Below are positions 19,812 to 36,944 of a stretch of 38,415 bases of DNA, piece after piece. The notes under the pieces were generated by a model that saw nothing but the letters and a program-made list of their open reading frames with translations, was not told the DNA's origin and searched no databases. The DNA is from a virus. The first letter of the stretch is position 1; each line of letters starts with the position of its first letter. The translations under genes and the position numbers were made by a program. The stretch lies in IMG/VR virus record IMGVR_UViG_3300022198_001053, positions 1 to 38,415 of that record; one strand, 5' to 3'.

Positions 19812-20058
19812 CGACGACGGCGAGCTACCGGAGGGTATGAGTCTTAATGACTTATTTGCTATGGCCGCGAATCAGGCAGCCCCCAAGTTCAAGATTATGC
19901 AAAAAGTATGGCTCCTTTGCGGGGAGCAAGCGGGTATGGTTATAGGGGTTACTGCTTATGCGGACAGGTTCGCTTACGTTGTGCGCTGGCCTGATGGGAC
20001 TAAGGACGAGTATATGGGCGAGGAGCTTACGAGCACTAAGCTCTGGTCTAATAACTGA
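19777..20058 (+). CDS. Small hypothetical protein between terminase genes, 93 aa
   Basis: Overlaps the end of the small terminase by 35 bp; in-frame ATGs at 19783 and 19792 are alternatives. After an acidic start (DDDGELPEGMSLNDLFAMAA), a beta-rich half (QKVWLLCGEQAGMVIGVTAY, FAYVVRWPDGTKDEYMGEEL) resembles a small SH3- or KOW-like barrel. Its stop overlaps the large terminase start as TGATG. Function unknown; may assist packaging. Confidence 0.62.
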   Translation: MVMNRMKQNFPDDDGELPEGMSLNDLFAMAANQAAPKFKIMQKVWLLCGEQAGMVIGVTAYADRFAYVVRWPDGTKDEYMGEELTSTKLWSNN

Positions 20059-21680
20059 TGGCTCTTAACTGGCGAGAGCATCCTATCTTGAAGCCGCCGA
20101 CTGCGGCTGAGATGGCTAAGATGCAGCCAGAGAAGCTGATACAGCTTTACGAGGCTTACCATCAGGCGATTGAGAACGCCGAGAAAGACCCGTATCGGTA
20201 TGGCTTTAGTCTCCCGCATTGGGATTACGCGGACAGGGCCATTGCTAAGTTCAAGACCTTGCTGCTGTTCGGGGCTAACCGTTCAGGTAAGACGCAGTAT
20301 TGCGCTAGGCTGGTAGTCCGCTCGGCCATTGAGAACGCAGGTAGTTTGATTTACTGCTTTAGCCAGAATAAGGAGATTAGCGTAATCGTGCAGCAGTCAG
20401 CGGTTTATAACTGGCTGCCTGCGGAGTATAAGACTAGGATGCTGTCATCCGTGGGTAACATTAACTACTCGTTCAAGAACGGCTTTACCGATAACGCTCT
20501 AGTCTTACCTAACGGCTCTAAGATTATCTTTAAGTTTTACACGCAGTGGATTCAGGACGACACCATCCTTGAAGGTATGGAGTTAGGGTGCCGCGAGCCT
20601 AAGTCGCATAACGTAGGCGCATGGCTAGACGAGTATCTCTTAGGTATGGACTTGATTGACCGCTTGTATATCCGTCTAGCTACGTTCAAGGCAAAGCTCC
20701 TTATCTCGTTTACGCCAAAGGACGGCGAGACTGAGACGGTTAAATACTTCAGGCAGAAAGCCGTAACCATTGAATCATTAAGCGTTAATGAGGGACTTAC
20801 CTCATCTCAGCGGGTTCCGTATTACCAAGAGAACGAGAGTATGAATACGGGCATTTGTTACTTTCACTCTAAGGACAACCCGTGGTCAGGATACGAGGCG
20901 TTACTTGAGCAATGCCTAGCAAGGGCTGACGATAATTACTCTTTGACTGCGCTTTACGGCGTGCCGACTCGGAACGTATCCACGAAGTTCCCTAAGTTCC
21001 AATCGCACATAAATGTCATTAAGCACGAGGAGCTGCTGAAGCGGATTGCTAAGGCGACTAAGTATATGGTCATTGACCCGGCTGGTAGCAAGCCGTGGTT
21101 CATGTGCTGGATTGCCGTGGACCCCTCTGACACTTGGTATGTGTATCGGGAGTGGCCTGATGCTAGTCACGGCGATTGGGCTATGGAGCGCGGCGGGAAG
21201 TGGGTTCCCGGCGAGGCTTGTAAGCAGAAGCTCGGTTACGGCGTAAAGGATTACGTTGAGCTTATTAAGACGCTTGAGGAAGACGAGGAAATCTTTGAGC
21301 GACTGATTGACCCTCGTATGGGTGCCGCGAAGTATTCTAGCGGCCAAGGCGGTCAAAGCGATTACATCTCTGACCTTAACCGTGAGGAGCTATTAGTCAT
21401 TCCTGCGCCGGGTATTGAGGAGGAGCCGGGTATCCAAGCGATTCAGGACAAGCTCTCGTATAACATGAACAAGCCGATTGACGGGAACAACCGGCCTCAC
21501 TTTTACATTTCGGATAGGTGCGAGAACATTATCCTCGCGCTTCAGGAATACGACGGCAGTAGCCGCGAGCATCCGCTGAAAGACCCGATTGACGTATTAC
21601 GTTACGCGGCGGTGCATCGCTTGGACTACATAGACGAAGACTCTCTGGTGTCTGTTAACAATCGAAAGGGTGGTTACTAA
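20058..21680 (+). CDS. terL: Large terminase subunit, 540 aa
   Basis: ATP-driven motor that cuts and pumps phage DNA into the prohead. Walker A is GANRSGKT (residues 72-79), Walker B with catalytic Glu is VGAWLDE (186-192) and the coupling motif is LLISFTP (214-220). The RNase H-like nuclease begins at YMVIDPAG (first metal Asp at 340), with further acidic residues in RLIDPRMG (418) and DPIDVLRYAA near the end. Length and order are standard. Start by TGATG overlap, no SD. Confidence 0.94.
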   Translation: MALNWREHPILKPPTAAEMAKMQPEKLIQLYEAYHQAIENAEKDPYRYGFSLPHWDYADRAIAKFKTLLLFGANRSGKTQYCARLVVRSAIENAGSLIYCFSQNKEISVIVQQSAVYNWLPAEYKTRMLSSVGNINYSFKNGFTDNALVLPNGSKIIFKFYTQWIQDDTILEGMELGCREPKSHNVGAWLDEYLLGMDLIDRLYIRLATFKAKLLISFTPKDGETETVKYFRQKAVTIESLSVNEGLTSSQRVPYYQENESMNTGICYFHSKDNPWSGYEALLEQCLARADDNYSLTALYGVPTRNVSTKFPKFQSHINVIKHEELLKRIAKATKYMVIDPAGSKPWFMCWIAVDPSDTWYVYREWPDASHGDWAMERGGKWVPGEACKQKLGYGVKDYVELIKTLEEDEEIFERLIDPRMGAAKYSSGQGGQSDYISDLNREELLVIPAPGIEEEPGIQAIQDKLSYNMNKPIDGNNRPHFYISDRCENIILALQEYDGSSREHPLKDPIDVLRYAAVHRLDYIDEDSLVSVNNRKGGY

Positions 21681-22066
21681 TGAAAGTTAAGATTACTGAC
21701 TTGGCCGAGGAACTCGGCGTTAATGTAAACGAGCTGCTTGAAGTTAAAGCAAGCAAGCTGACTGAGGACGACTGGACCGGTCGCGGTAAGAACACTTGGT
21801 TTACCGAGGATGCCGTGGCTAAGATTCGCCTAGCTATGGACATCCCTGAGCTTTCGCCAGATGTCCTTTATGCGACGTTCGTTCACGTTGCCCCTAATGA
21901 CCGCTGGGTTTACGCGAAGATTCAAGGCGTTGATGGTAAGCGTCCTGTGCTTATCCCTCGGAAACTTCGTGGTAAGCTAAAGGATAAGAAGTTTCCAGTT
22001 CATGCCATCACGGACAACAAAGGCACAACTTACCGCCATGCCGCGCTTACAGGATACAACCTGTGA
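21680..22066 (+). CDS. IF2N-like small protein, 128 aa
   Basis: The first 25 residues, VKITDLAEELGVNVNELLEV, fit the IF2N fold found at the N-terminus of translation factor IF-2. A Trp/Thr segment (DDWTGRGKNTWFTEDAVAKI) and a beta-rich C-terminal half (RWVYAKIQGVDGKRPVLIPR) follow. TAATG overlap with the large terminase. In a packaging operon it more likely binds protein or nucleic acid than initiates translation. I recall similar genes in marine phage contigs. Confidence 0.66.
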   Translation: MKVKITDLAEELGVNVNELLEVKASKLTEDDWTGRGKNTWFTEDAVAKIRLAMDIPELSPDVLYATFVHVAPNDRWVYAKIQGVDGKRPVLIPRKLRGKLKDKKFPVHAITDNKGTTYRHAALTGYNL

Positions 22067-22262
22067 CCCAGAGTGGCTATCGCAGCAGACTGACCGTTTG
22101 CTCGGCTTTGAGGTGCTTTACAAGGAAGTGACTGGCTACGCTGATAACATCCAGCCCTCCGCCATTTGCGAAAAGATTGGGGTTCACCCGACATTCACGC
22201 ACGAGGCGGTTCTGTCTTTCGTAACCAAGTTTAGCCAATTCAACTACATCCCTAATGAGTAA
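22038..22262 (+). CDS. Small hypothetical protein, 74 aa
   Basis: Start chosen at 22038 (MPRLQDTTCDPEWLSQQTDR) to limit overlap with the IF2N-like gene (29 bp); an ATG at 22002 is possible. The C-terminus (HPTFTHEAVLSFVTKFSQFN) is helical. It overlaps the portal start by 8 bp. No family recognised. Confidence 0.58.
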   Translation: MPRLQDTTCDPEWLSQQTDRLLGFEVLYKEVTGYADNIQPSAICEKIGVHPTFTHEAVLSFVTKFSQFNYIPNE

Positions 22263-24345
22263 CACGAGCGAGGAGAAGTCTCTTACATTTGCCGCGAAGG
22301 AACCGAACGTAATGGTTCTTCAGAAAGCATACGACGACACGCTGGCGGACCTAGAGCCTTATTTCCAGCAATGCCGCCAGAATTACGATGACCGTAATAA
22401 CATCTGGCCGGGGAAAACCCGTGACCTTCGCAAGCACGGCTCTGACGCTTTCCCGTGGGATGGCGCGTCTGACTCCGAGGCTCATGTTATTGACGAGCGC
22501 ATTAACAGCTACGTCTCCTTGCTCATGTCCTCCATGATGCGTGCGAACATTCGTGCGTATCCCGTGGAGTTCGGTGACATGGCGCGTGCTCGCGTTGTCT
22601 CCTCGTTCCTGAAGTGGATGGTCAGCAGCTACATTCCTCGCTTTAAGAAAGAGATGGAGTCTGCTGCAAATCACTTGCTTGAGCGCGGTATCGCCGTGAC
22701 TTACGTTGGCTGGCAGCGAGAAGACCGCACTTACCTCCAGCGTCTTGACCTTCAGCAGCTTGCTCAGGTTGACCCGCAGCTTGCTCAGGCCGTAATTGAC
22801 GGCTCGGCTGACGACCAGATTATTGCTATGCTTCGTTCGGTGTATCCCTCGGTTACGGATGCCCGTGCTAAGAAAGCCCTGAAGGACTTGCGCAAAAAGG
22901 GCATTGCTGAGATTCCTGTTAGCCGCCGCCAAGTGGACTGCCCCTTGGTTCAGTCCCTTACGCCTGATGGCGACTTCTTCTTCCCGTCTTACGCCACCGA
23001 CCCGCAGCGTGCGCCTTATTGCTTCTGGCGGACTTACTTCACAGCCCAAGAGCTAAAGAACAAAGTCGCCACCGAAGGATGGGATGCCGACTGGGTGGAT
23101 TACGTTATTGAGCATTACCGGGGCGTGAACATTGACACGATTGGTCAGGAGAACAACACCCGGAAGTCTGTCCTTTGGGACGACATGGTTTACGAGGCGG
23201 ACGAGCTGATTGAGATTGTTTACGGCTATCAGCGTCTCGTGGACCCGATTGACAATTCCGAGGGCATTTACTGCACGGTTTTTCATCGGGAGCTTTCATC
23301 GAAGATTAGTGAGATTAAGCCTTACGCCAAGTTCGAGCTTATGAACGGTTACGAGGATTATCCCGTAATTGTAACTCGTCTTAGCGAAGCCTCTAAGCGT
23401 CTGTATGATGTTCAGAGCATGGCCGACGTTCTGCGCGGTATTCAGTGGCAGGTGAAGATTGAGCGCGATAGCCGCATTGACCGTAACTCAATGGCTACGA
23501 TGCCGCCGATTATGCACCCGGTTGGTAACGCTCCGAGTGATTGGGGGCCGGGACGGTTTGTTCCGTATCGCCGTGGTGGCGAGTTCCAGTTCGGTCCTAC
23601 GCCGCAGTATAACCCCGGCTCCGTGGAAATGGAGCGCACGCTTCTTGACGTTGCTGACCGTCTCGTTGGCCTTAGCGCGAATGACCCGGCTTCCGCTACG
23701 AAGCGTCAGTTTATCCTAGATAAGTTCTTGTTGCACGTTCAGGACGTTATCAAGATGGCGTTCAAGTGCTACCAGCGGTTCGGCCCTGACCAAGTGTTCT
23801 TCCGTGTTACCGGCGTCGTTGACCCGATGCGCTTCGACAAGGGGAACCCTGACGAGAATTACGACATTGTTATCGGTTATGATGTCCTTAACTCCGACCC
23901 CGAAACGCAGGAGACAAAGTTGAACCAGCTTGTCAGCCTCATTCAACTGGACCGTAATGGACGTATTAACCCCGACGCTCTCATTGACATTGCGGCTAAC
24001 GCTATCGACCCGATTGCTGCTGACGCGGTGCTGCAACCGATTGAGCAAGCGCAACAGCAAATCGTCCGGTTTGTTACGGATGACCTTACTAAGATTTTTG
24101 CTGGCATCGAAATGCCTGCTCGACCGAATGGCGCACAGATTGCGCTTCAAGTTATTCAGCAGTATGCTTCACAACCAGACGTTGCACAGCGTTTGCAGCA
24201 AGACGAAGCATTTGCGGCACGACTCCAGAAGTATGCAGCGCAATACACCTTCCAAATGCAGCAAGCGCAGAACGCTCAGATTGGTCGTATTGGGACTCAG
24301 CCTGCTGCTATGGGTGACGTTAATACTCAAAGCATGGGGGCTTGA
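22255..24345 (+). CDS. Portal protein, 696 aa
   Basis: Forms the dodecameric ring at the capsid vertex through which DNA enters and leaves. The length, and the sequence DGASDSEAHVIDERINSYVS followed by a long helical stem region, fit portals of large podovirus type. The C-terminal 100 residues are a Gln/Ala-rich helix (QPIEQAQQQIVRF, LQKYAAQYTFQMQQAQNAQI), resembling the barrel extension of P22-like portals. It directly follows the terminase cluster and precedes the endolysin. Confidence 0.88.
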   Translation: MSNTSEEKSLTFAAKEPNVMVLQKAYDDTLADLEPYFQQCRQNYDDRNNIWPGKTRDLRKHGSDAFPWDGASDSEAHVIDERINSYVSLLMSSMMRANIRAYPVEFGDMARARVVSSFLKWMVSSYIPRFKKEMESAANHLLERGIAVTYVGWQREDRTYLQRLDLQQLAQVDPQLAQAVIDGSADDQIIAMLRSVYPSVTDARAKKALKDLRKKGIAEIPVSRRQVDCPLVQSLTPDGDFFFPSYATDPQRAPYCFWRTYFTAQELKNKVATEGWDADWVDYVIEHYRGVNIDTIGQENNTRKSVLWDDMVYEADELIEIVYGYQRLVDPIDNSEGIYCTVFHRELSSKISEIKPYAKFELMNGYEDYPVIVTRLSEASKRLYDVQSMADVLRGIQWQVKIERDSRIDRNSMATMPPIMHPVGNAPSDWGPGRFVPYRRGGEFQFGPTPQYNPGSVEMERTLLDVADRLVGLSANDPASATKRQFILDKFLLHVQDVIKMAFKCYQRFGPDQVFFRVTGVVDPMRFDKGNPDENYDIVIGYDVLNSDPETQETKLNQLVSLIQLDRNGRINPDALIDIAANAIDPIAADAVLQPIEQAQQQIVRFVTDDLTKIFAGIEMPARPNGAQIALQVIQQYASQPDVAQRLQQDEAFAARLQKYAAQYTFQMQQAQNAQIGRIGTQPAAMGDVNTQSMGA

Positions 24346-24346
24346 T

Positions 24347-24883
24347 ATGGCCGAAATTGGCAACTACGACGAAATGGTTGCTCGCTCAAGTGCGGAGCAA
24401 AGAAAGTTCTCTGAAGACCTTTACAATCAGATTGCCGAACACGAAGGCGTTAAGCAGTATGTTTACCTCGACACCGAGGATAAGCCTACTATTGGTGTCG
24501 GCTTTAATTTGACGCAGCCGCATAACCAGCGCATCATTAGGCAAATGGGGTATAACCCGCAAGACCTGATTAGCGGCAAGGTTCGCCTGACGGAATCAGA
24601 AATTAAGCGTCTTTACAATGAGTCTGTTACTCAGGCGTTTAACGACGCTCGTAAGTGGTTGCCTAACTTTGACCAGCAGCCAGCAGACGTAAGGAAGGCT
24701 TTGATTGACATGTCTTTCAATCTCGGCTTTACCAAGCTAAACGAGTTCGAGAAGACCCAAGCTGCATTGATGCAAAAGGATTACAAGACCGCCGCGGCTG
24801 AGATGCTTGACAGCAAGTGGGCGAAGCAAGTAAAAGGACGAGCACAGACCCTTGCTTCAATGGTTCGCAAACACTCTAAGTAA
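24347..24883 (+). CDS. Endolysin, T4-type lysozyme (GH24), 178 aa
   Basis: Hydrolyses peptidoglycan at lysis. The catalytic triad is spaced exactly as in T4 lysozyme (E11-D20-T26): E33 in EHEGVKQYVYLD, D42, and T48 in KPTIGVGFNL. The C-terminal region ADVRKALIDMSFNLGFTKLN is typical of the family. No signal peptide or SAR helix is visible, so a holin is needed. The gene lies 8.7 kb before the holin-like pair, an unusual separation. Confidence 0.93.
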   Translation: MAEIGNYDEMVARSSAEQRKFSEDLYNQIAEHEGVKQYVYLDTEDKPTIGVGFNLTQPHNQRIIRQMGYNPQDLISGKVRLTESEIKRLYNESVTQAFNDARKWLPNFDQQPADVRKALIDMSFNLGFTKLNEFEKTQAALMQKDYKTAAAEMLDSKWAKQVKGRAQTLASMVRKHSK

Positions 24884-25104
24884 TGTCACTCGAAAAATCC
24901 CTCGACCACCTCTCTCACATCACGCAGTTCGCTGACTTCCTTGAGTCAATCAAGGATGAGCGTGAGTCCTGTATCGCGGCTCTCTTTAACGCAGAGCCTC
25001 ATAAGATGCAGCAAATTTCGGGACAGATTCTCGCTTACGACCAAATCCTAAAGATGACTAACGCAGAGGAGATTCTCTTTAGGCATAAGGGCCGCTCGCT
25101 TTAA
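24883..25104 (+). CDS. Small helical protein, 73 aa
   Basis: TAATG overlap with the endolysin gene. MSLEKSLDHLSHITQFADFL followed by an ERESCIAALFN helix and a second amphipathic helix. It resembles small head-associated proteins next to portals in other phages, but I cannot assign it. Confidence 0.62.
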   Translation: MSLEKSLDHLSHITQFADFLESIKDERESCIAALFNAEPHKMQQISGQILAYDQILKMTNAEEILFRHKGRSL

Positions 25105-25135
25105 GCGGCGGCTAAGAAAGAGAATAAGTAAACTG

Positions 25136-25166
25136 AAAATAAAAGAAACCCCTTAAAAGAAAGGGG
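25136..25166 (-). terminator. Intrinsic terminator of the minus-strand island gene
   Basis: Minus strand: CCCCTT-TCTTTT-AAGGGG (25166-25149) followed by TTTCTTTTATTTT. It ends transcription of the gene at 25421-25200. Confidence 0.75.
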
Positions 25167-25199
25167 GAGTGTGAGGGGGATTTTAAAATCTTGTCAAGC

Positions 25200-25421
25200 C
25201 TAAAGTTGGTTCGCTTGTAACATAGCGATTACATGGGCCGGGGGGTTAGCGCGGGAGTAACGAAAGATTTCGTGCTCCTCAATTACTAGCTCTCCAAAGG
25301 GGTGCATTTTGGCGTGTGCCGCGTTGCCCCTGACCTTAACTCGGCGCATTGTTTGCGCAGCCTTCCAGTGCTCTGGAGCTATCCAGTCATAGGAGGTGGG
25401 CTTACGGGGTTTGGGATTCAT
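25200..25421 (-). CDS. Isolated minus-strand gene in the virion operon, 73 aa
   Basis: A basic, Pro-rich start (MNPKPRKPTSYDWIAPEHWK) leads to KVRGNAAHAKMHPFGELVIE and an aromatic end. It opposes all surrounding genes and has its own terminator, the arrangement of a mobile extra gene (moron). No family recognised. Transcription against the late operon would require its own promoter upstream (25422-25470). Confidence 0.62.
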   Translation of the reverse strand: MNPKPRKPTSYDWIAPEHWKAAQTMRRVKVRGNAAHAKMHPFGELVIEEHEIFRYSRANPPAHVIAMLQANQL

Positions 25422-25474
25422 TGAACTTCAAGACTTTGCACATAATAGCAAATAAATGTCAAGCAGCAAAAAAG

Positions 25475-25485
25475 CGTGTTACAAT
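25475..25485 (+). promoter_or_regulatory. Extended -10 promoter of the scaffold-capsid unit
   Basis: CGTGTTACAAT. A weak -35-like ATGTCA (25456-25461) precedes it by 18 bp. Predicted start near 25492 gives a 41-nt leader to the scaffold ATG at 25533. Confidence 0.6.
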
Positions 25486-25532
25486 GACGTTATCGCAAAT
25501 CGCTCAGGCGTTCAAAGAGAGCGTTGATAACT

Positions 25533-26672
25533 ATGTCTAATGAAGTTCTAACACCTAACGCTGCGGGTGAAAAAAGTGCAGTGGAAAGCTCAGACAACCT
25601 TGCGTTCGGGATGTATGCACTCCGACGCCGGGGTGGTAAGACGGAAGTTCAGGGGGAGCCTAAAATCTCCACCGAAGTAATTAACGTCAAGCCAGCAGAA
25701 CCGCAACCAAAGGCGGAGCAGGAGGATAAGCAGGCCGGGGAAGCCCAGCCTGAGTCTCGGAACGACACCCAAGCGGAGGCCGTTACCGAGAACGAACCTG
25801 TAAGCCAAGAGGAAGCAGATGTTCTTTCTAAGAAGGAAATCGACCTAGAGTCCATGTCAGAGGCAGAACTGCGGGAGCTTGCCGACAAGCTCGGTAGCCG
25901 CGCAGTAGCCCGATTCGGTGAGCTTACCGCAAAACGTAAGCAAGCCGAGGAACAGCTTAATGCCCTGAAACAAGAACTAGCGAATCGGGAATCGCAAAAG
26001 AATCCCTTGGAGACTAAGCGGATTGAAAACAATCCGTTTGCCGACATCGACAGCGTTGAGAAATTGCAGGGCAAGGCCCGCGAAATCGACGAGGCTATCG
26101 AATGGGCCGAAGACGTTCTCTGGACTAACGAGCATCTGGCAGCAGATGACATCGTTGCGACAGTGGACGGCAAAGAGATTACCAAGGCTCAGGTGCGTAA
26201 AGTTATGCGCGATGCTCAGAAGGCACGCAAAGACTTTCTCCCGGCGCAGCTCTCTGAACTCCAAGCCCGTCAGCAACGTGCCGCCGCCAAGCAACAGCTT
26301 AGTGAGGCAATTCGGACGGAACTGGATTGGATGCAAGGCGAAGATAACGATACCCGCAGGCAGTTCGAGATTCTGCGCGAAAGCCCGCTTTTGAAGCAGG
26401 CTATCAAAGCAGTCCCGGACCTTGAGCCTTACATGGAATACATGGTGGCTCACGCGGCTAATTCGATTTATGGGCGCAAGCCTGTGAACGAAACCCGGCC
26501 TAGTGCGCGGATTAACCCTCCTTCGATTCAGGTTAGTTCTTCTGCTCAAAGCGAGCAGCCAGAACCCCGAGCGGCTAAGGCCGTGAAAGACATTCAGCAA
26601 CGGTTCTCTACGTCAGGTGCTACGCAGGACTTCATCGCTCTCCGCGCCCTTCAACACTCTAAACGTAAATAA
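25533..26672 (+). CDS. Scaffolding protein (predicted), 379 aa
   Basis: Directly precedes the capsid gene. It is hydrophilic, Glu/Lys/Gln-rich and largely coiled coil (ELTAKRKQAEEQLNALKQEL), after a disordered N-terminal third, and it ends in a basic C-terminus (RALQHSKRK), the segment with which scaffolds commonly contact capsid protein. The start is the ATG at 25533; an in-frame TTG at 25524 is less likely. Assignment by position and composition. Confidence 0.75.
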   Translation: MSNEVLTPNAAGEKSAVESSDNLAFGMYALRRRGGKTEVQGEPKISTEVINVKPAEPQPKAEQEDKQAGEAQPESRNDTQAEAVTENEPVSQEEADVLSKKEIDLESMSEAELRELADKLGSRAVARFGELTAKRKQAEEQLNALKQELANRESQKNPLETKRIENNPFADIDSVEKLQGKAREIDEAIEWAEDVLWTNEHLAADDIVATVDGKEITKAQVRKVMRDAQKARKDFLPAQLSELQARQQRAAAKQQLSEAIRTELDWMQGEDNDTRRQFEILRESPLLKQAIKAVPDLEPYMEYMVAHAANSIYGRKPVNETRPSARINPPSIQVSSSAQSEQPEPRAAKAVKDIQQRFSTSGATQDFIALRALQHSKRK

Positions 26673-26691
26673 CTCTTAACTACCGCCTAAC

Positions 26692-27675
26692 ATGGCTTTT
26701 TCTAACACTTACGACACAACCAATCCGGGTTCGGCTGTCTCCAATCGTGAAGACCTGACCGACATCCTGACCATCCTCGCCCCCGAGGAAACTCCCGTGC
26801 TTTCGTCCGCTCCTAAGAGCAAGGCGACAGGGACATTCGTTGAATGGACCGTTGACTCCCTCGCTTCCCCGGTGACATCCGGCGTGGCCGAAGGTGCCGA
26901 CGTTACATCGTTCACCGACAAATTCAGTGGCCGCGCTCGTATCGGCAACTACGTCCAGAAGTTCCGCCGCGACTTCATGGTGTCTGACCTCCAGAACGCC
27001 GTTGAGTCCGTTGGTCCCGCGAAGATTGCTCAGGCTGAAGCCAAGGCCGTCCGCGAAATCAAGCGCGACGTTGAGGCTACCCTGTGCTCCGCGAATGACC
27101 GCTCGTCTGAAGATGGTGCTGGCACCGTTTATGGCCTCCGTGGTCTGGGCGACTGGATTGACTCGGCTGGTCCGGCTGACGTTCCGTCCGCTTACCGCAC
27201 GCCTGCTGGTTCGATTCACTCGTCCGGTGCGCTGACTGAGAGCGGTTTCAATGACCTGATTACGTCGATTTATCGCGTCACAGGCACAACGAACAACCTG
27301 ACGCTCGTGGCCGACACAGCCCTGCGTCGCGTTATCGCTGACTATGCTCGCACATCGGGCAGCACAAACACGGTTTACCGCCAGATTACTCAGGCGGCTG
27401 ATTCCAAGACCATCAAGCTCTCGGTCGAGATGTATGAGTCCGACCACGGCATGGTGAGCATTGTGAACATGAACCCGGACTGCGCTCCTGACACCACAAA
27501 CAAGGACACTGGCTACCTCGTCAACCCGGATTACTACGGCGTTGCGGAGCTGATTGGCCTTGGCTCGACCCGTCTGCCGAACCTCGGCGGTGGTGAGCGT
27601 GGTTATGTGGACACAACCCTCACGCTGTTGGTCAACCATCCCGGTGCCCACGGCAAAATCACAGCCCTCAGCTAA
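26692..27675 (+). CDS. Major capsid protein, SU10/DUF5309-like, 327 aa
   Basis: The N-terminus TTNPGSAVSNREDLTDILTI followed by LAPEETPVLSS, FVEWTVDSL and EGADVTSF fits, from memory, the SU10-type capsid family (DUF5309) with HK97 fold. REIKRDVEATLC belongs to the long spine helix region. It lies between scaffold and decoration genes. It uses ACA heavily, the codon read by the phage tRNA-Thr. Most codons end in C, unlike neighbouring genes, suggesting selection for high expression. No SD. Confidence 0.88.
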   Translation: MAFSNTYDTTNPGSAVSNREDLTDILTILAPEETPVLSSAPKSKATGTFVEWTVDSLASPVTSGVAEGADVTSFTDKFSGRARIGNYVQKFRRDFMVSDLQNAVESVGPAKIAQAEAKAVREIKRDVEATLCSANDRSSEDGAGTVYGLRGLGDWIDSAGPADVPSAYRTPAGSIHSSGALTESGFNDLITSIYRVTGTTNNLTLVADTALRRVIADYARTSGSTNTVYRQITQAADSKTIKLSVEMYESDHGMVSIVNMNPDCAPDTTNKDTGYLVNPDYYGVAELIGLGSTRLPNLGGGERGYVDTTLTLLVNHPGAHGKITALS

Positions 27676-27684
27676 TAACTAACA

Positions 27685-28137
27685 ATGGCCCAGCTCACAA
27701 TTAACGAATCCGCAGGCACGCTTTTCAACTACGTTGCGAAGCTGTCGTATCTTGACCTTCAGGCTATCGGCAACGGTAATCAGGATGTCTTGTTTACGCT
27801 CCCCGCCGGTTCGGGTGTGCTGTCCTGCGTTGTTCACGAGAAGACAGCCATCGCTGGCTCGACCTCGCTCGTGATTGACGTTGGCACAACACAAGCCGAC
27901 CCTGACGAGTTCATTGACGCTCTGGACGTGGACGCTATGTCTGGCCCCGTGGCTAACACTGGCGACCTTTTCGTTCAGTCCGCTGGCACGACCACCATCG
28001 CTGGTGGCGCGTTGCCCGTGAAGCTGGTTGCTTCCGCCACCCCGGTTTATATCGAGGTGAACGATGCCGCCATTGCGTCGATTACTGCTGGTGAGATTGT
28101 TATCGCGCTTCAAGTGGTGAACTTCTCTCAGTTCTAA
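27685..28137 (+). CDS. Capsid decoration or head-fiber-like protein, 150 aa
   Basis: Small beta-rich protein (MAQLTINESAGTLFNYVAKL, GALPVKLVASATPVYIEVND) starting 9 bp after the capsid stop and ending just before a strong terminator. Pairing with the capsid gene in one transcription unit implies high copy number, as for proteins covering the capsid surface. Function inferred. Confidence 0.68.
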   Translation: MAQLTINESAGTLFNYVAKLSYLDLQAIGNGNQDVLFTLPAGSGVLSCVVHEKTAIAGSTSLVIDVGTTQADPDEFIDALDVDAMSGPVANTGDLFVQSAGTTTIAGGALPVKLVASATPVYIEVNDAAIASITAGEIVIALQVVNFSQF

Positions 28138-28150
28138 CCCACTAGACTAG

Positions 28151-28161
28151 CGTGTTATAAT
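28151..28161 (+). promoter_or_regulatory. Extended -10 promoter overlapping the capsid terminator
   Basis: CGTGTTATAAT, perfect TATAAT with TGn. The predicted start (28167-28168) lies inside the 5' arm of the terminator stem, so its own transcripts cannot form the terminator and would continue into the tail genes. Confidence 0.7.
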
Positions 28162-28191
28162 GGGGCTATCCTTCGGGGTAGCCCCTTTTTT
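28162..28191 (+). terminator. Strong UUCG-capped intrinsic terminator after the capsid unit
   Basis: GGGGCTATCC and GGGTAGCCCC form a 10-bp stem (one G-T pair) around a TTCG tetraloop, followed by six T (28186-28191). The next gene's ATG begins right after the T run. Confidence 0.92.
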
Positions 28192-28500
28192 ATGCAGCTA
28201 ATTACAACCTTCCCGAAATACCATGATGGAGAAATCCACGCCGCGCTAATGCGCGAGCTAAAGACGGGGCTGCAACTAAAGAAAGAGATGGAGCGTGCTA
28301 AAGAAATCGAAGCCGCTCAACAAGCTAAAGAGCTGGTTAATCAACGAGAAGTCCCCGGTTTGGGACGGTGCATCGGGGTAATCCCCGAGTGGGAATTTTA
28401 CCGTATGCAGCAAAAATACGGAGCCAAAGAGGTTCACTCTAAGGAGTTTATGAAATACTTCCAGAAGAAGTTCCCTCACCTTTCCCCTAACAAACTGTGA
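28192..28500 (+). CDS. Hypothetical protein, 102 aa
   Basis: ATG directly after the terminator T run. A helical Lys/Glu/Gln centre (LKKEMERAKEIEAAQQAKEL) is followed by RCIGVIPEWEFYRMQQKYGA and an aromatic-basic end. The C-terminal half resembles small head-completion or virion proteins but I cannot name it. The stop overlaps the adaptor start as GTGA. Confidence 0.65.
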   Translation: MQLITTFPKYHDGEIHAALMRELKTGLQLKKEMERAKEIEAAQQAKELVNQREVPGLGRCIGVIPEWEFYRMQQKYGAKEVHSKEFMKYFQKKFPHLSPNKL

Positions 28501-29354
28501 CTAACCGAACATACAGCGACCTTTATTCACTAATTAGCTCGCTTTCGGGCGTGAGTGACTTCACGACCCAAGAGCAAACGAGCATCCTGAACTTTGTTAA
28601 TCGCCGCATTTATCAGGCGTATCGGCAAAGTCAGACTTGGCCGCGATACATCGTAGGTGCTCAGGCGCGGCCTATGGTAGATGGGGTTATCCCCGTTACC
28701 TTTACGCCGACTACTTACAATGTCGCCTCGGCGTCCCGTAGCGGGACAACCGTGACGTTCGTTTGCACGGCTGGCGTGAACTTTGTGGCCGGTATGTATG
28801 TCACGGTAGCCGCCCTTAGCGGAACCGTGAACGCTAACGGTAACTTCCAAGTTGTCAGCGTGGACACGACCACGACGACTAACGACACCTTTACTTACGA
28901 GCTGACCTCTGGGACGGGCACCGAGACTTACACCGGCTCGGCTACCGTCATCGCTGACGCGGTTCCCGAGATTGACAGCTTTAACCGCATCTGGAGCAGC
29001 AACCCCCTGAACATTAACTCGGCTATCGAATACGAGTTCTGGGTGGATTCTGACGGTGCTCATGTGGTGAACAATTACAGCAACCTAAGCGGGTTCTGGG
29101 TTAGCTTCATCAAGGAGTGGGGCGGCCCTTATACGTCCGCCGCTACTGACATTCCCGGCGAGTTCTTTGAATACGCCGCTCATGCTGCTTACGCCGACTT
29201 CCTTCGGATGGATGGTCAGATTGACAAATCCATTGCCGAGGAAAACGTGGCGCAGCAATACCTTTTGGTAGAATTAGACAAAGCGGAATCGCAACGCAAT
29301 AACAATACGCTTTACCGCCGAATCTCAACATACGTCTCCCGCCAGTCTCGTTAA
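28497..29354 (+). CDS. Head-tail adaptor (collar) protein, 285 aa
   Basis: GTG start overlapping the preceding stop. The first 60 residues (SDLYSLISSLSGVSDFTTQE, then ILNFVNRRIYQAYRQSQTWP) and the helical C-terminus fit gp6/T7 gp11-type adaptors that bind below the portal. Between them (about 65-155) lies a beta-rich insertion (SGTTVTFVCTAGVNFVAGMY, NGNFQVVSVD), similar to domains in the nozzle gene. Function inferred from position and helical pattern. Confidence 0.72.
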   Translation: MTNRTYSDLYSLISSLSGVSDFTTQEQTSILNFVNRRIYQAYRQSQTWPRYIVGAQARPMVDGVIPVTFTPTTYNVASASRSGTTVTFVCTAGVNFVAGMYVTVAALSGTVNANGNFQVVSVDTTTTTNDTFTYELTSGTGTETYTGSATVIADAVPEIDSFNRIWSSNPLNINSAIEYEFWVDSDGAHVVNNYSNLSGFWVSFIKEWGGPYTSAATDIPGEFFEYAAHAAYADFLRMDGQIDKSIAEENVAQQYLLVELDKAESQRNNNTLYRRISTYVSRQSR

Positions 29355-29358
29355 TCTT

Positions 29359-29673
29359 ATGCCTAACACATTCACAGTTAATCTTTACCCGGTTCCGACA
29401 GACGGCGGCACAGACGAACGCCTGACGGTTTCTACGTCCGTTGTGCAGTTTGCTACAACGTGGTATGACGAGGACACTAAGTTCGTTTTCGTTGATGTCC
29501 AAGGTGCCGACATCATGGTTACGTTTGACGGCTCTGACCCCTCGGCTTCTAACGGCCACAAGTTTGCATCTGGCTTCCGTGGCTTCTGGTCTGCTCGTCA
29601 GGCTGATGCGGCTAAGATGATTCGCGCTGGCGGCACCGACGCTGCGGTGCAGGCTTCACCCTTTACAGTTTAA
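29359..29673 (+). CDS. Small virion protein A, 104 aa (paralog of next)
   Basis: MPNTFTVNLYPVPTDGGTDE, then VFVDVQGADIMVTFDGSDPS and a helical end with RAGGTDAAVQ. The core is shared with the next gene, so the two arose by tandem duplication. A small beta-sandwich virion protein near the adaptor is likely; exact role unknown. Confidence 0.65.
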   Translation: MPNTFTVNLYPVPTDGGTDERLTVSTSVVQFATTWYDEDTKFVFVDVQGADIMVTFDGSDPSASNGHKFASGFRGFWSARQADAAKMIRAGGTDAAVQASPFTV

Positions 29674-29677
29674 TCTC

Positions 29678-30004
29678 ATGCCTAACGCACGCATTGTTAA
29701 CACGCCGTCGCAGGCGATTTCGCAGAACAACACGACTCATAAGCAGAACACGATTAGCTCGTCTGCCGAGGCTATCGTGAACTGGAGCTTGAACGCTGGC
29801 ACTACGCACGTTCTGGTGCAAGTTACTGGCGAGCCTATTCGTGTGACTTTCGATGGCGCGACTGACCCGACCGCTTCGCTTGGCTTCCGTATGCCTGCTA
29901 ATAGCTCGGCTTACTGGACACGGGAGATGGCTTCTAAGGCCAAGGCTATCCGCGAAGGTTCCAGCGATGCCGTGGTTGAAATGCAAGAACTGAACTACCT
30001 CTAA
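29678..30004 (+). CDS. Small virion protein B, 108 aa (paralog of previous)
   Basis: Shares MPN start, VQVTGEPIRVTFDGATDPTA, an aromatic turn, AKAIREGSSDAVVEMQ with the preceding protein, at clearly diverged identity. A single base separates its stop from the fiber start. Likely a virion component; role unknown. Confidence 0.65.
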   Translation: MPNARIVNTPSQAISQNNTTHKQNTISSSAEAIVNWSLNAGTTHVLVQVTGEPIRVTFDGATDPTASLGFRMPANSSAYWTREMASKAKAIREGSSDAVVEMQELNYL

Positions 30005-30005
30005 G

Positions 30006-31625
30006 ATGGACGTTTTCAAAACCCTGATTCTGGACACGCCGACAGTAGAAGGCGCGACCGGCACAGTCACTAGCGTTGACCTGGCGGCTGGCACAGGCAT
30101 CAGCGTTAGCGGCGGCCCCATCACAAGCTCGGGTAGCATTACCGTAACAAATACGTCGCCTGACCAAACGGTTGCGCTGACTGGCGGGACAGGTATTTCG
30201 ACCTCGGGGACTTACCCGAATTTTACGATTACTAACGACGCCCCCGACCAGACGGTTAGCATTGCGGCTGGCACAGGAATCTCTACGTCGGGAACGTATC
30301 CCAGCTTCACGGTTACAAATTCGGCCCCTGACCAGACTGTTAGTATAGCCGCTGGAACTGGGATTTCCGTGACTGGAAGTTATCCTAGCTTTACCGTCGC
30401 TGCAACTGGCGGTGCTACTGGTGATGTAGTCGGTCCTGCCTCTGCTACGGATAATGCTGTTGTTCGATTTGATAGCACGACGGGTAAGCTAATTCAGGAC
30501 TCGGGTGTTAGCATCAGCGATGCGAATCTGCTCACGACTACCGCGCTAACGGTTAATGACAACACCACCCTTGGCAGCAGCAATACCGATACCGTTACGT
30601 TTAACGCTCGCTGTGCCTCGGAGTTCACCCCTGCTACGGATAACACTTACGACCTTGGTGGCACAGGACACGAGTGGCGCGACTTGTATATCGACGGCAC
30701 GGCTAACATTGACTCGCTGGTTGCTGACACGGCTGACATTAACGGAGGCACGATTGACGGTGCTACGATTGGCGCAAGCACAGCGTCCTCTGGTGCGTTT
30801 ACGACCGCCTCGGCCAGCACCTCGGTGACGACGCCGCTTGTGACCAATGCTGGCACGCTCGCGCTGACCGCTACTGGCGCAAACGTTATCGCCGCTTCTA
30901 CCGATGGCTCCGAACGCATGCGCATCGACAGCGCAGGCAACGCCCTCGTTGGGACGACGAGTTATTTCTCTGGTGGCTACAACGCCGCTAGAACATACTT
31001 AGAAATCAAGGGAAGCACCAGCACCGGAGTTCTGGGTTTTGCAACTGGTCAAGCTGATGCCGATGGAAACTTGGCTGGCATGACCGAGTTCCATGATTTA
31101 AACTCAACCTCTGGCAGCACTCGTGTCGGATACATTGCTACACGACTGCGCGGCACCACGGCAAACAATCGTGGCTCAGGCATTGCGTTTGCAATTAAGA
31201 CTGACAACTCCGCAACCGTTACTGAACTGCTCCATATTGAAAGCACCGGCGTCGGCATTGGCACGTCGAGTCCTGCTCAAGCATTGCACGTTGTAGGCGA
31301 AATTATTGCCACAGGCAACATCACAGCTTACTACTCCGACGACCGCCTAAAGACCAAGCTCGGTAACATTGAGAACGCTCTCGACAAGGTTTCCAAGCTG
31401 AACGGTTTTTACTACGAGGCGAACGAGACTGCTCAAGCCCTTGGCTACAAGCCGGTGCGCGAGGTTGGTCTGTCCGCGCAGCAAGTCGAAGCGGTCCTTC
31501 CAGAGGTCGTTGCCCCAGCCCCCATCGACAACGAATACAAGACGCTGCATTACGAGCGTGTTATCCCGCTTCTCGTAGAGGCCATCAAAGAACTCAAAGC
31601 TGAAATCGAACTCCTGAAGAAGTAA
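30006..31625 (+). CDS. Tail fiber with S74 intramolecular chaperone, 539 aa
   Basis: Three 28-residue repeats (PDQTV, then GTGISTSGTYPSFTVTN; roughly residues 45-130) form a beta shaft, followed by Ala/Ser/Thr-rich repeats (TADINGGTIDGATIGASTAS). The last 98 residues are a peptidase S74 chaperone domain with the self-cleavage Ser-Lys dyad in SDDRLK (S444, K449) and the conserved EVGLSAQQVEAVLPEVV. It assists trimer folding and is released by cleavage before S444. Likely a host-recognition fiber. Confidence 0.9.
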   Translation: MDVFKTLILDTPTVEGATGTVTSVDLAAGTGISVSGGPITSSGSITVTNTSPDQTVALTGGTGISTSGTYPNFTITNDAPDQTVSIAAGTGISTSGTYPSFTVTNSAPDQTVSIAAGTGISVTGSYPSFTVAATGGATGDVVGPASATDNAVVRFDSTTGKLIQDSGVSISDANLLTTTALTVNDNTTLGSSNTDTVTFNARCASEFTPATDNTYDLGGTGHEWRDLYIDGTANIDSLVADTADINGGTIDGATIGASTASSGAFTTASASTSVTTPLVTNAGTLALTATGANVIAASTDGSERMRIDSAGNALVGTTSYFSGGYNAARTYLEIKGSTSTGVLGFATGQADADGNLAGMTEFHDLNSTSGSTRVGYIATRLRGTTANNRGSGIAFAIKTDNSATVTELLHIESTGVGIGTSSPAQALHVVGEIIATGNITAYYSDDRLKTKLGNIENALDKVSKLNGFYYEANETAQALGYKPVREVGLSAQQVEAVLPEVVAPAPIDNEYKTLHYERVIPLLVEAIKELKAEIELLKK

Positions 31626-32530
31626 TGGCTCTCCCGGCGTCAGGCCAGATTAGCATGAGCCAAGTCAATACGGAGCTTGGCCTTTCTGCTACTGCACAAA
31701 TTTCGCTGAACGATGCAGCGGTGCGAACCCTCGCAGCCGTCCCATCTGGCGCAATCTCGCTGGATGACTTGCATGGTAAGTCAAATACAACAACTACCAC
31801 TTTTAACTATACTGGTTCATCTCAAACATGGACGGTGCCTGCTGGTAAAACAACAGCAACTTTCAAGTGCTGGGGTGCCGGTGGAGGTGCTGGTATCGGC
31901 GTTAATGGAGGTGCTGGTGGTTATGTTGCTACGACAGTAAGCGTAACCGCTGGTCAGACTTATACCGTTATCGTCGGTCGAGGAGGTTCTTATTCATATA
32001 CAGCATATCCCAACGGAGGTGTGCCGTCCGGCATTGGCGGAGGTGGTGGTGGTAGAACTTCGGTCAGTGGAACCGCTGTTACAATCATAGCTGGTGGTGG
32101 CGGCGGAAGCGGCAATGCTGCAAACACCAATGGTTACGGCGGTGCCGGTGGTGGTAACGGTTCTGGTGCAGCTGGTGGCGGTGGCGGTGCTGGCGGAGGC
32201 GGTGGCACCCAAGCCGGGGGTGGGGCTGGTGGCATTGTCCAAGACGGCGGAGGCTATGGCTCTACGAACGGTGGCAGTGGCTCATCCAACCAAGGTGGAG
32301 CCGCAGGAACTGGAAGTTATGCCCCCGGAAGCGGTGGCGATGGTTATTACGGTGGTGGTGGTGGTGCTGGTTGCGGCTCTGCTGCACCATTCGGTGCTGG
32401 TGGCGGTGGTGGCGGGTCTGGATATATCAGCGCAGGAACATCACAAGTCAGCACCCAAGGTGGCGGTAGCGCAGGAGGCGCAGCAAACTTTGGTGCTGGC
32501 GGCGACGGCAAGGTAGAAATTGTTTGTTAA
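31625..32530 (+). CDS. Glycine-rich fiber-tip adhesin, 301 aa
   Basis: The N-terminal 55 residues (SGQISMSQVNTELGLSATAQ, SGAISLDDLHGKS) match a motif common in phage fiber proteins. Next is a short beta domain ending in CWGAGGG. The remaining 190 residues are dominated by glycine runs (GGGGGAGGGGGTQAGGGAGG), like the polyglycine-II sandwich of S16 gp38 adhesins, with variable non-glycine loops that would form the receptor-contact surface. TAATG coupling to the S74 fiber. Confidence 0.8.
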   Translation: MALPASGQISMSQVNTELGLSATAQISLNDAAVRTLAAVPSGAISLDDLHGKSNTTTTTFNYTGSSQTWTVPAGKTTATFKCWGAGGGAGIGVNGGAGGYVATTVSVTAGQTYTVIVGRGGSYSYTAYPNGGVPSGIGGGGGGRTSVSGTAVTIIAGGGGGSGNAANTNGYGGAGGGNGSGAAGGGGGAGGGGGTQAGGGAGGIVQDGGGYGSTNGGSGSSNQGGAAGTGSYAPGSGGDGYYGGGGGAGCGSAAPFGAGGGGGGSGYISAGTSQVSTQGGGSAGGAANFGAGGDGKVEIVC

Positions 32531-32545
32531 CAATTCAGACAAATA

Positions 32546-33085
32546 ATGCCTATCCCGCCTGACGTTAACTGGATTTCTTACTACGGGGATAACCCCGATA
32601 CGGACGGCTTTGAGAACCCGCCTTACCCCAAGGCGTATGACGACATCATTAAGTTTTATCACTGCACTAACGCGCAGCTAAAAGGTAAGACCGTTGATGC
32701 CGGGACAGAGAATAACGTAGATGCCACGGGCTGCACGAACATTGAGTTCTCGGATTGCAGGTTCATCGGCCAAGCTGGAATCTCGGCGTTCACAATTAAG
32801 GGCAAGACTGACGGCTGGCGCATCGTAAGTTGCATGATTAGCCACGGGCGCGAGACTGACGTTGAGCTAGGTCAGTTTGATAACTCGTGGTATTGGGGCC
32901 GTCCCCCGACGCGCAACGGGCTGATTTGGAGCTGCGAGTCCAATGATGGCGGGCCTATCAAGGTCACTTGTTGGGACGCTGTTCCCCCGGAGGTCGTTGA
33001 CAGTAACGTCAAGATTGTCCGCGTCCCTAAGTTTATCTGGCTCCCTTACTTTTGCTGGCGTTGGATTCGTCATCACTGGTTTTGA
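32546..33085 (+). CDS. Virion-associated hypothetical protein, 179 aa
   Basis: MPIPPDVNWISYYGDNPDTD leads to a region with regular short strands (TNIEFSDCRFIGQAGISAFT, DGWRIVSCMISHGRETDVEL) resembling a small right-handed beta-helix. A very aromatic, basic C-terminus (KFIWLPYFCWRWIRHHWF) looks membrane-active. Lies between adhesin and holin genes. Unknown function. Confidence 0.6.
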   Translation: MPIPPDVNWISYYGDNPDTDGFENPPYPKAYDDIIKFYHCTNAQLKGKTVDAGTENNVDATGCTNIEFSDCRFIGQAGISAFTIKGKTDGWRIVSCMISHGRETDVELGQFDNSWYWGRPPTRNGLIWSCESNDGGPIKVTCWDAVPPEVVDSNVKIVRVPKFIWLPYFCWRWIRHHWF

Positions 33086-33087
33086 TT

Positions 33088-33098
33088 CGTGCTAGTAT
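33088..33098 (+). promoter_or_regulatory. Extended -10 promoter 6 nt before the holin ATG
   Basis: CGTGCTAGTAT ends five bases before the ATG at 33104, so transcription would begin at or beside the start codon, giving a leaderless holin message. Confidence 0.58.
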
Positions 33099-33103
33099 AA
33101 GCT

Positions 33104-33547
33104 ATGTTTAGTTTTCTTTCTAGTGCAGTCGGTGGCTCCATCTTGGGCGGCGTCCTTTCTTTGGTTCAAAAGATTGTGGACGTTAAGTCTAAAGCGATGG
33201 AAACCGAGCTTGAGATTAAGAAAATGGAGGCCATGTCCCGGCTGAAGATTACTGAGGCCGAGTTCAAGTCCTTCGATACCAGCCTCAAGAGCGATAACGA
33301 AGCCGTCCAGATTCCTGCAAATGCCCCTATTTGGGTCATTTCTACCCGTATTCTGGTGGACGCCTTTCGTGCTTTTACCCGCCCCGGCCTGACTTGGGCG
33401 ATGGTCTTGTCGCTGATTATGTTCATCGTGGCAGGGTTCGTCGGTGAGGCAGCGGTTGCCGCTATCTTGGCTGACTTCGTTTTTGCTACTTCAACAGCCG
33501 TCATGTGGTGGTTCGGTTCGCGGCCACTACAACGCACAGCCAAATGA
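33104..33547 (+). CDS. Holin-like membrane protein, 147 aa
   Basis: An amphipathic hydrophobic N-terminus (FSFLSSAVGGSILGGVLSLV), a coiled-coil middle, and two membrane helices at about 97-113 and 116-137, with RPGLTWAM and WWFGSRPLQRTAK near the end. This agrees with the three-TM holin family described for gene transfer agents (GTA_holin_3TM), as I remember it. It would permeabilise the membrane so the GH24 endolysin reaches the cell wall. Confidence 0.75.
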   Translation: MFSFLSSAVGGSILGGVLSLVQKIVDVKSKAMETELEIKKMEAMSRLKITEAEFKSFDTSLKSDNEAVQIPANAPIWVISTRILVDAFRAFTRPGLTWAMVLSLIMFIVAGFVGEAAVAAILADFVFATSTAVMWWFGSRPLQRTAK

Positions 33548-33768
33548 ACGATAACCTCCAGCCCATGAAAATGATTAGCCTTAACGCTATTAGCTGGGTG
33601 TCCACCGTTGCTACGCTTCAGATGGCGACTGACGTTTTGCAGGTTCTTGCCATGGCCGGCTCGGTTATTGTTAGCTCCCTTTCCGCTTGGTGGATTATCA
33701 AGCAAGCTAAGAACCTTGACCGTATTAACCGGGAGGCGGAACAGAACCGCCTCAAAGACGCAGAATAA
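33544..33768 (+). CDS. Second lysis-type membrane protein, 74 aa
   Basis: ATGA overlap with the holin-like gene. One membrane helix (about 31-53, VLQVLAMAGSVIVSSLSAWW) is followed by a charged coiled coil (KQAKNLDRINREAEQNRLKD), the layout of an antiholin, pinholin or inner-membrane spanin. No lipoprotein outer spanin is apparent. Role inferred from coupling to the holin-like gene. Confidence 0.65.
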   Translation: MNDNLQPMKMISLNAISWVSTVATLQMATDVLQVLAMAGSVIVSSLSAWWIIKQAKNLDRINREAEQNRLKDAE

Positions 33769-33803
33769 GCCACTTTACGGGCTTTTAACCCTTTACACCT
33801 ACC

Positions 33804-34052
33804 ATGGCCCTCAATCCCCGCAATCTGCCCTGTAATAGCCCTAGACGCGACGTTAAGGGCGGGAAGAAGTTCGTAGTCAAAGCCTGTCAGGGCGGCAAAG
33901 AAAAGGTCGTCCGATTCGGGGACGCGAACATGACCATCAAGAAAAACCAGCCTGCGCGGAAGAAAAGCTACTGCGCTCGGTCTGGTGGAATCAAGGGCAA
34001 GGAGAACAAACTTTCTGCAAACTATTGGAGCCGAAGGGCTTGGAACTGTTAA
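33804..34052 (+). CDS. Small basic cysteine-containing protein, 82 aa
   Basis: Lys/Arg-rich with four Cys (NLPCNSPRRD, VVKACQGG, KKSYCARSGGIKG, RRAWNC). From memory, FGDANMTIKKNQPARKKSYC resembles a conserved protein of uncultured marine phages. First of five small basic genes. May bind DNA or structural RNA. Confidence 0.7.
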   Translation: MALNPRNLPCNSPRRDVKGGKKFVVKACQGGKEKVVRFGDANMTIKKNQPARKKSYCARSGGIKGKENKLSANYWSRRAWNC

Positions 34053-34071
34053 GCATTAACCATTAACTACT

Positions 34072-34182
34072 ATGAGCAAATCAGGTGAACGATACAAGTC
34101 GCGTAAGCAACGGATGAAGCACGAGAAGTCCGAGGGTAAGCGCGAGCGCATGATGGAATACGGCAAGCGGAAGAAGTGCTGA
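34072..34182 (+). CDS. Tiny basic protein, 36 aa
   Basis: MSKSGERYKSRKQRMKHEKS and GKRERMMEYGKRKKC. About half of the residues are Lys, Arg or His. Stop overlaps the next start (TGATG), which supports it being a gene. Confidence 0.62.
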   Translation: MSKSGERYKSRKQRMKHEKSEGKRERMMEYGKRKKC

Positions 34183-34364
34183 TGAAGCGTTCTACGGTTA
34201 ACTCTGCCGGGGTTTACACTAAGCCTACTATGCGTAAGCGGCTCTTTGAGTCGATTAAGGCCGGTGGCAAGGGTGGCAAGCCGGGGCAGTGGTCTGCTCG
34301 TAAAGCGCAGATGCTTGCTAAGAAATACAAGGAAAAGGGCGGCGGTTATAAAACGGCCCGATGA
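34182..34364 (+). CDS. Small basic protein, 60 aa
   Basis: MKRSTVNSAGVYTKPTMRKR, then IKAGGKGGKPGQWSARKAQM and KKYKEKGGGYKTAR. I recall this KPGQWSARKAQ motif from other phage proteins of unknown role. Coupled to both neighbours by overlaps. Confidence 0.7.
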   Translation: MKRSTVNSAGVYTKPTMRKRLFESIKAGGKGGKPGQWSARKAQMLAKKYKEKGGGYKTAR

Positions 34365-34594
34365 AACCGCAGCAAAAGAGCCTTGTGAACTGGACGCGCC
34401 AGAAATGGCGCACTAGCTCTGGTAAGCCTAGCCTAAAGACCGGCGAGCGATACTTGCCCGATGCGGCATGGAAAGCCCTTAGCCCGTCTGAGAAAGCTGC
34501 TACAAATCGGGCCAAGCGCGAGGGGATGAAGAAAGGCAAGCAGTTCGTTAAGCAGCCTAAGTCCATCGCTAAGAAAACCTCAAGATACCGCTAA
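34361..34594 (+). CDS. Small basic protein (DUF5872-like), 77 aa
   Basis: LVNWTRQKWRTSSGKPSLKT, GERYLPDAAWKALSPSEKAA and GKQFVKQPKSIAKKTSRYR match a pattern I associate with DUF5872 in phages and giant viruses. Highly basic; ATGA overlap with the previous gene. Function unknown. Confidence 0.72.
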   Translation: MKPQQKSLVNWTRQKWRTSSGKPSLKTGERYLPDAAWKALSPSEKAATNRAKREGMKKGKQFVKQPKSIAKKTSRYR

Positions 34595-34595
34595 T

Positions 34596-34739
34596 ATGCC
34601 ACTGACCAAAAAAGGCCGTAAGATTAAGGCCGCGATGCAAGCCGAGTATGGCAAGAAGCGTGGCGAGCAAGTCTTTTACGCCAGCCGTAACAAAGGCATC
34701 ATCAAGGGTGTTGACGTTAAACGCCGCAAGGTGAAGTAA
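34596..34739 (+). CDS. Small basic phage protein, 47 aa
   Basis: MPLTKKGRKIKAAMQAEYGK then KRGEQVFYASRNKGIIKGVD. This MPLTKKG / VFYASxNKG pattern is widespread in phages as I recall it and has no established role. Last gene of the basic cluster. Confidence 0.75.
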   Translation: MPLTKKGRKIKAAMQAEYGKKRGEQVFYASRNKGIIKGVDVKRRKVK

Positions 34740-34749
34740 CAACATAAGC

Positions 34750-34755
34750 TATACT
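34750..34755 (+). promoter_or_regulatory. -10 box 7 nt before the nozzle ATG
   Basis: TATACT, with the ATG at 34762, so a leaderless transcript is predicted. It lacks the TG extension of the other late promoters. Confidence 0.48.
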
Positions 34756-34761
34756 AGGTAA

Positions 34762-36939: not shown

Positions 36940-36944
36940 ACCCT

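Follow-up and report, generated by a model that had tools for sequence, protein, structure and literature searches.

Can one short stretch of DNA end the transcript of a capsid gene and, at the same place, start the transcript of the genes that follow, with the new RNA exempt from the very signal that stops the old one? The question is raised by a junction in a viral record from IMG/VR, 38,415 bases long, the whole of which is called the window here. At this junction a perfect extended -10 promoter element lies directly against a strong intrinsic terminator. The arrangement is confirmed, and the element is probably a fused terminator-promoter set between the capsid unit and a downstream morphogenesis unit.

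A promoter element against a terminator stem

The genes and signals around the junction are as follows.

20058-37609, plus strand: gene block, with TerL, portal (by size and synteny) and scaffold (by synteny) genes ahead of the major capsid gene
25477-25485, plus strand: second extended -10 element (TGTTACAAT), candidate promoter of the scaffold/capsid unit
26692-27675, plus strand: major capsid protein gene (PHROG 1328 major head protein, E 1e-61)
27685-28137, plus strand: small post-capsid gene, 150 aa, decoration-type by position only
28153-28161, plus strand: extended -10 element TGTTATAAT, a perfect match (TG at 28153-28154, hexamer TATAAT at 28156-28161)
28162-28171, plus strand: terminator 5′ arm GGGGCTATCC, which also serves the promoter as G-rich discriminator and as initial transcribed region
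28167-28170, plus strand: predicted transcription start, likeliest A28168, 7 nt past the last T of the -10 by sigma-70 spacing
28172-28175, plus strand: UUCG tetraloop (TTCG), replaced by other loops in relatives
28176-28185, plus strand: terminator 3′ arm GGGTAGCCCC, paired in relatives despite sequence change
28186-28191, plus strand: U-tract, T6, read from the sequence
about 28187-28192, plus strand: predicted 3′ ends of incoming capsid transcripts
28192-28500, plus strand: first gene of the downstream unit, 102 aa, with a start conserved in relatives
28497-29354, plus strand: second gene of the downstream unit, connector/tail-tube type by synteny

The capsid protein is 64% identical to the major head protein of Phage C75C1. 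Its neighbours are less easily named: a PHROG search returned no match for the product of 27685-28137, PHROG and Pfam searches returned none for that of 28192-28500, and a family search returned none for 28497-29354, a gene whose position is that of "tail tube A" in phage Venkman and of a "virion structural protein" in UFV-P2. By synteny, the small protein encoded at 28192-28500 would be followed by connector/tail genes. Rfam, at gathering thresholds, had no match at the junction; it does place a tRNA gene at 6171-6242 on the minus strand of the window.

Read directly from the window, the junction is gtgTTATAATGGGGCTATCCTTCGGGGTAGCCCCTTTTTTATG. An earlier note on this DNA had stated that the TATAAT box ends at the base before the stem of a UUCG terminator, and this is what is found: the last base of the extended -10, 28161, adjoins the first base of the stem, 28162, and the hairpin folds, as a 30-nt RNA, at -20.4 kcal/mol (z = -4.1, with none of 200 shuffles as stable). 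The 44-bp span that the note gave to the device was essentially correct, the minimal version being 28153-28194. An intrinsic terminator is defined by a stable, G+C-rich hairpin with a U-run immediately behind it, and 28162-28191 has this form. The hairpin at 28162-28185 ranks first in a scan of the plus strand of the whole window and has the most G-C pairs (seven) among the 22 terminator-like sites in its right half. The ATG at 28192 stands directly 3′ of the U-tract, 6 nt from the stem.

On the promoter side, the box is, as a sequence feature, an extended -10 element, a type (TGnTATAAT or a close variant) that is able to work without a -35. No -35 hexamer is recognisable upstream of 28153 (the best reaches about 3/6 by eye), which is why a sigma-70 scan does not list the box and why an activator may be needed. 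It is important to stress that the word itself is no rarer or commoner than it should be, in that the window contains 15 copies of TGNTATAAT when up to one mismatch is allowed, where shuffles lead one to expect 18.5, so the evidence lies in position and conservation and not in the box alone. The only other perfect extended -10 in the window is TGCTATAAT, at 13952-13960 on the minus strand, in a leftward gene block; TGGTAGAAT, at 36947-36955, ends 6 nt ahead of the ATG at 36962, and its transcript would be leaderless.

The proposed mechanism follows from this geometry. A polymerase arriving from the scaffold, capsid and 27685 genes would transcribe the whole inverted repeat, its RNA would fold the 10-bp hairpin ahead of U6, and most such transcripts would stop at about 28187-28192. 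A polymerase loading at TGTTATAAT would start near A28168, with six bases of the 5′ arm already behind it, and its RNA would lack GGGGCT, the base of the stem that must sit against the U-run. A start 6 nt into the arm would thus cost the RNA its stem base and let it escape the terminator, to transcribe from 28192 onward behind a leader of about 24 nt. In this way an element of about 40 bp would end one unit and start the next, and capsid output would be set apart from tail/connector output. We infer both the start position, A28168, and the efficiency of termination.

The earlier note held, further, that transcripts starting here cannot fold the terminator. This stands as far as the base of the stem next to the U-run is concerned, which is lost, and RNA from the predicted start at 28168 folds at -5.9 kcal/mol versus -20.4 at full length. 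It does not stand for the rest of the stem, since loop-proximal pairs remain, or else a GGGG-UAG-CCCC hairpin, which RNA from 28168 can still form before U6 and which represents a weak risk of self-termination.

Promoter activity in this uncultured phage would presumably come from a host polymerase of the sigma-70 type; of the open reading frames that were scanned, none was recognised as a single-subunit RNA polymerase, which fits the use of a host enzyme. The capsid unit may have a promoter of its own at 25477-25485, where an element (TGTTACAAT or TGTTATAAT) is matched in place in L002, L010, L011, L013-L018 and L082, with no counterpart found in the other subgroups of the family. This candidate agrees with the idea of a capsid unit that has a promoter at one end and the terminator at 28162-28191 at the other.

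Conservation among relatives

Loci related to the window (L002-L160, some contigs present twice) were fetched by relatedness to the capsid gene or the 27685 gene, and about 40 of the listed sequences have the same junction, with an extended -10 located 0-2 nt before a hairpin stem. When redundancy is removed by keeping sequences below 85% similarity across the hairpin and the 25 upstream bases, the fused arrangement is present in 15 of the 16 members whose capsids are at least 67% identical, although these members share ancestry and such counts are not independent. Only L110 (capsid 74%) departs from this, with a hairpin but no -10, and a more distant group, with capsids below about 61%, likewise has junction hairpins and no -10.

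The form of the element was taken from an alignment of 14 diverged relatives, picked among carriers and thus informative about what the element looks like and not about how frequent it is. In these, TGnTAnAnT is invariant, as are one upstream A, the stem positions G27 and G38, two T residues of the U-tract and the ATG. The sequence and loop of the hairpin vary while pairing is kept (e.g., GGGGCUAUCC, GGGGCCACC, GGGGCAUACC, GGGGGCGCAUCC), which is supporting evidence only, since the hairpins of relatives were found by a search for pairing. Across the terminators of the family, extended -10 matches cluster next to the stem, with a maximum at 0-2 nt (23 of 44), and are close to absent at other positions. 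A strong hairpin lies at the junction in nine of ten genome-length records (the window included), and in these ten records no extended -10 stands at the stem of any other strong terminator listed. In the predicted RNA of most relatives, what is left of the stem is its loop-proximal part alone, set off from the U-run by bases that have no partner.

Inheritance from the wider LUZ24-type head-gene group was considered and rejected, the members examined showing no obvious abutting extended -10: none was evident in UFV-P2, Venkman, phiM5, Ss1, HTVC106P, Vibrio 1.262 or phiGT1. Within that group, the fusion therefore seems to belong to the clade of the window.

The conservation also brings out a reading in which the promoter is real and the hairpin acts mainly on translation or RNA stability, in the style of T4 gene e, with termination secondary. 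Read-through RNA would then hide the start region in a hairpin of -18 to -20 kcal/mol placed 6 nt before the AUG, while RNA from the internal start would be freely translated or would keep a protective 5′ stem. Two subgroups lend this some weight. L010, L011, L015 and L016 have an eroded U-tract (CCCTATTATT or CCTTATTATT; TATTATT), and in L037-L057 it is broken (AATTTCGTTTT), though the -10 and the hairpin are kept in both, such that their hairpins are unlikely to be strong intrinsic terminators and may also act in translation or RNA stability. In addition, the start codon lies 6-14 nt from the stem across the clade, the residual hairpins of several relatives begin at or near nucleotide 1 of the predicted RNA, and T4 e and I-TevI do hide a ribosome-binding site in this manner (PMC3014915, PMC2988022). 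However, most members have a good U-tract right after the stem, and in several the AUG is 12-14 nt away. As for what would be hidden, the AUG is 6 nt past the stem in the window and G-runs of the 3′ arm can pair with the anti-Shine-Dalgarno sequence in places, but Shine-Dalgarno pairing is absent (duplex energy near 0) in most of the plus-strand genes checked (e.g., 26692, 27685 and 28497). Because the other genes of the window mostly lack a Shine-Dalgarno sequence, the main role is unlikely to lie in hiding one, and this was rejected. Overall, a hairpin devoted chiefly to translation or stability is an unlikely account of the junction, although in the two subgroups with a poor U-tract such a role is a serious alternative.

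Recurrence in other phages

Sites outside the family were sought with a loose pattern, TATAATGGGG..CCCCTTTT, and with a control in which the hexamer was permuted to TAATAT. The totals of the two are not comparable, and the informative figure is the placement of TG: among the matches listed, 27 of the 63 distinct TATAAT sites that abut a stem have it in the right position, compared with 2 of the 63 control sites. Many of the control matches listed are themselves TGnTATAAT, displaced by two bases.

A complete scan of IMG/VR was made with a stricter pattern, TGTTATAATGGGGN{6,28}CCCCTTTT. TGTTATAAT abutting GGGG..CCCCTTTT was present in 26 stretches; a gap of 8 nt between the two parts reduced this to 1, a gap of 20 nt to 4, and breaking the hairpin through its 3′ arm to 0. 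By contig name, six of the 26 stretches fall in the family of the window and 20 outside it, although the latter include related groups and do not represent independent events. In bacterial genomes (GTDB set, 257 Gb) the strict pattern matched three times and, by this count, the fused element is not common there.

Many of the non-family sites that were examined look like T4-like cyanophages. By our own reading of the sequences, they lie 3′ of gp32-like, psbD-like and HLI-like genes and 5′ of a clamp-loader-like gene, and one of the contigs (L301) is an 87% match to Synechococcus phage S-SRM01. Several of these abutting sites have good -35 hexamers 16-17 nt upstream. One further case is the psbD/gp219 junction of Synechococcus phage Syn9 (NC_008296), where, as in the window, TGATATAAT abuts a hairpin (AAGGGGGTC..GACCCTCTT) and a T-run. 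The fused site occupies 168314-168349 (8314-8349 of L417), the ATG of gp219 comes right after the T-run, and the stop codon of psbD, TGA, supplies the TG of the extended -10. Unlike the window, this is an unrelated phage with unrelated genes, and a TTGCCA -35 lies inside psbD.

Two further regularities were seen among these loci. In L221, L301, L306, L313, L173, L178 and others, an extended -10 abuts a terminator stem after a gp32-like gene for a single-stranded DNA-binding protein, and at cyanophage-like sites of this type an ATG stands directly 3′ of the U-tract. Separately, "acatctag" recurs directly upstream of TGTTATAAT in L180, L181, L199, L233, L244, L266, L447 and L448, which have a hairpin of the GGGGGTGCGACGGCA.CCCC type and several of which follow a small secreted-protein-like gene ("GPYVNVEAN").

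These counts bear on another reading, that this is an ordinary post-capsid intrinsic terminator whose TATAAT-like bases are the usual A/T-rich flank. It is true that the window shows no enrichment of TGNTATAAT-like words, and that among the more distant relatives UFV-P2 and Phage C75C1, for example, have a junction terminator without a -10. An A/T-rich flank does not, however, predict a TG before 27 of 63 listed TATAAT sites as against 2 of 63 permuted ones, and TGnTAnAnT is invariant in the 14 diverged relatives, making the ordinary terminator an improbable explanation.

Less probable still is a recycling relay, in which a polymerase that has terminated stays on the DNA, moves back by 20-30 bp or so and starts again at the -10 next to the stem, thereby coupling initiation of the tail unit to termination of the capsid unit. 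After intrinsic termination, the polymerase of Escherichia coli does diffuse along the DNA and is able to start anew at promoters close by (PMC6978380), and the fused layout would keep the sliding distance minimal. Yet the abutting geometry is unnecessary for this, since diffusion reaches farther, and a terminating polymerase might block the promoter instead; we regard the relay as very doubtful. Words resembling the extended -10 can, within transcribed DNA, induce sigma-dependent pausing, as in late operons of the lambda type, but that the -10 here is such a pause signal aiding termination, and not a promoter, is scarcely credible, because the pause would sit near the loop, well ahead of the release site, and because a pause signal has no use for the good -35 hexamers that stand at 16-17 nt in several abutting sites elsewhere.

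The fused terminator-promoter thus remains the preferred reading, and the earlier note's proposal of a promoter within a terminator, starting inside the 5′ arm, finds support at the level of sequence in the invariant TGnTAnAnT, the kept pairing and the marked enrichment of the abutting position in unrelated, marine phages. We lean towards the broader view that terminator-promoters with a start in the 5′ arm are a general part of lytic phages, evolved repeatedly in the podovirus-like family of the window and in T4-like cyanophages. If so, a single part of about 40 bp ends one unit and starts the next, sometimes sharing a stop codon or coding bases with its neighbours.

Known systems and what the element would mean

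Both halves of the proposed logic have precedents. In T4, the e and I-TevI genes have a late promoter within the 5′ part of an inhibitory hairpin, and a start there frees the ribosome-binding site (PMC3014915, PMC2988022). As in the window, the start lies deep in the hairpin, the new RNA lacks the 5′ part and the read-through RNA folds; by position, the window's predicted start, 6 nt into the arm, would likewise leave the 5′ strand of the hairpin out of the promoter's transcripts. The difference is that the T4 hairpin hides a ribosome-binding site behind a gp55 late promoter, whereas the window has an intrinsic terminator and an extended -10 of the sigma-70 type.

The other precedent is the post-capsid terminator. 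T7 (Tphi) and LUZ100 have a terminator directly after the major capsid gene (PMC10134795), which, as proposed for the window, separates high capsid expression from the tail genes, but no promoter fused to the hairpin is described and the late genes use the phage's own polymerase. UFV-P2, which is LUZ24-like (PMC3890496; NC_018850), carries, in its annotation, a rho-independent terminator that separates the head gene from its downstream neighbour; the phage shares with the window the head-gene family (PHROG 1328), a similar gene order and the post-head terminator, but no -10 abuts its stem. The succession of head gene, terminator and structural genes seen in LUZ24-like phages (Bruynoghevirus/Vicosavirus) is present in the window, as an arrangement and not as a taxonomic membership, with one extra small gene ahead of the terminator. 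By analogy with the T7, LUZ100 and LUZ24-type cases, the element would affect the ratio of capsid to tail products.

Promoters fused into terminator stems were not found described in the open PMC literature, which leaves most subscription papers outside and is weak evidence of novelty. The start-inside-hairpin logic and the post-capsid terminator are known; what may be new is their union with an intrinsic terminator and a promoter of the sigma-70 type.

As a rule, promoters and terminators are regarded as distinct parts that follow one another in series, and here the start of the promoter would disarm the terminator solely for the transcripts to which it gives rise, no protein factor such as Q or N being needed. 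For annotation, this means that terminator callers would cut operons at such sites and miss the start of the new unit. It also yields a prediction that can be searched for by sequence, namely that transcripts should start 6-8 nt into terminator stems, which is checkable in existing phage RNA-end data, such as those for Syn9. For tightly packed phage genomes, the element would provide a compact insulator and promoter in one, and it would be a ready synthetic part.
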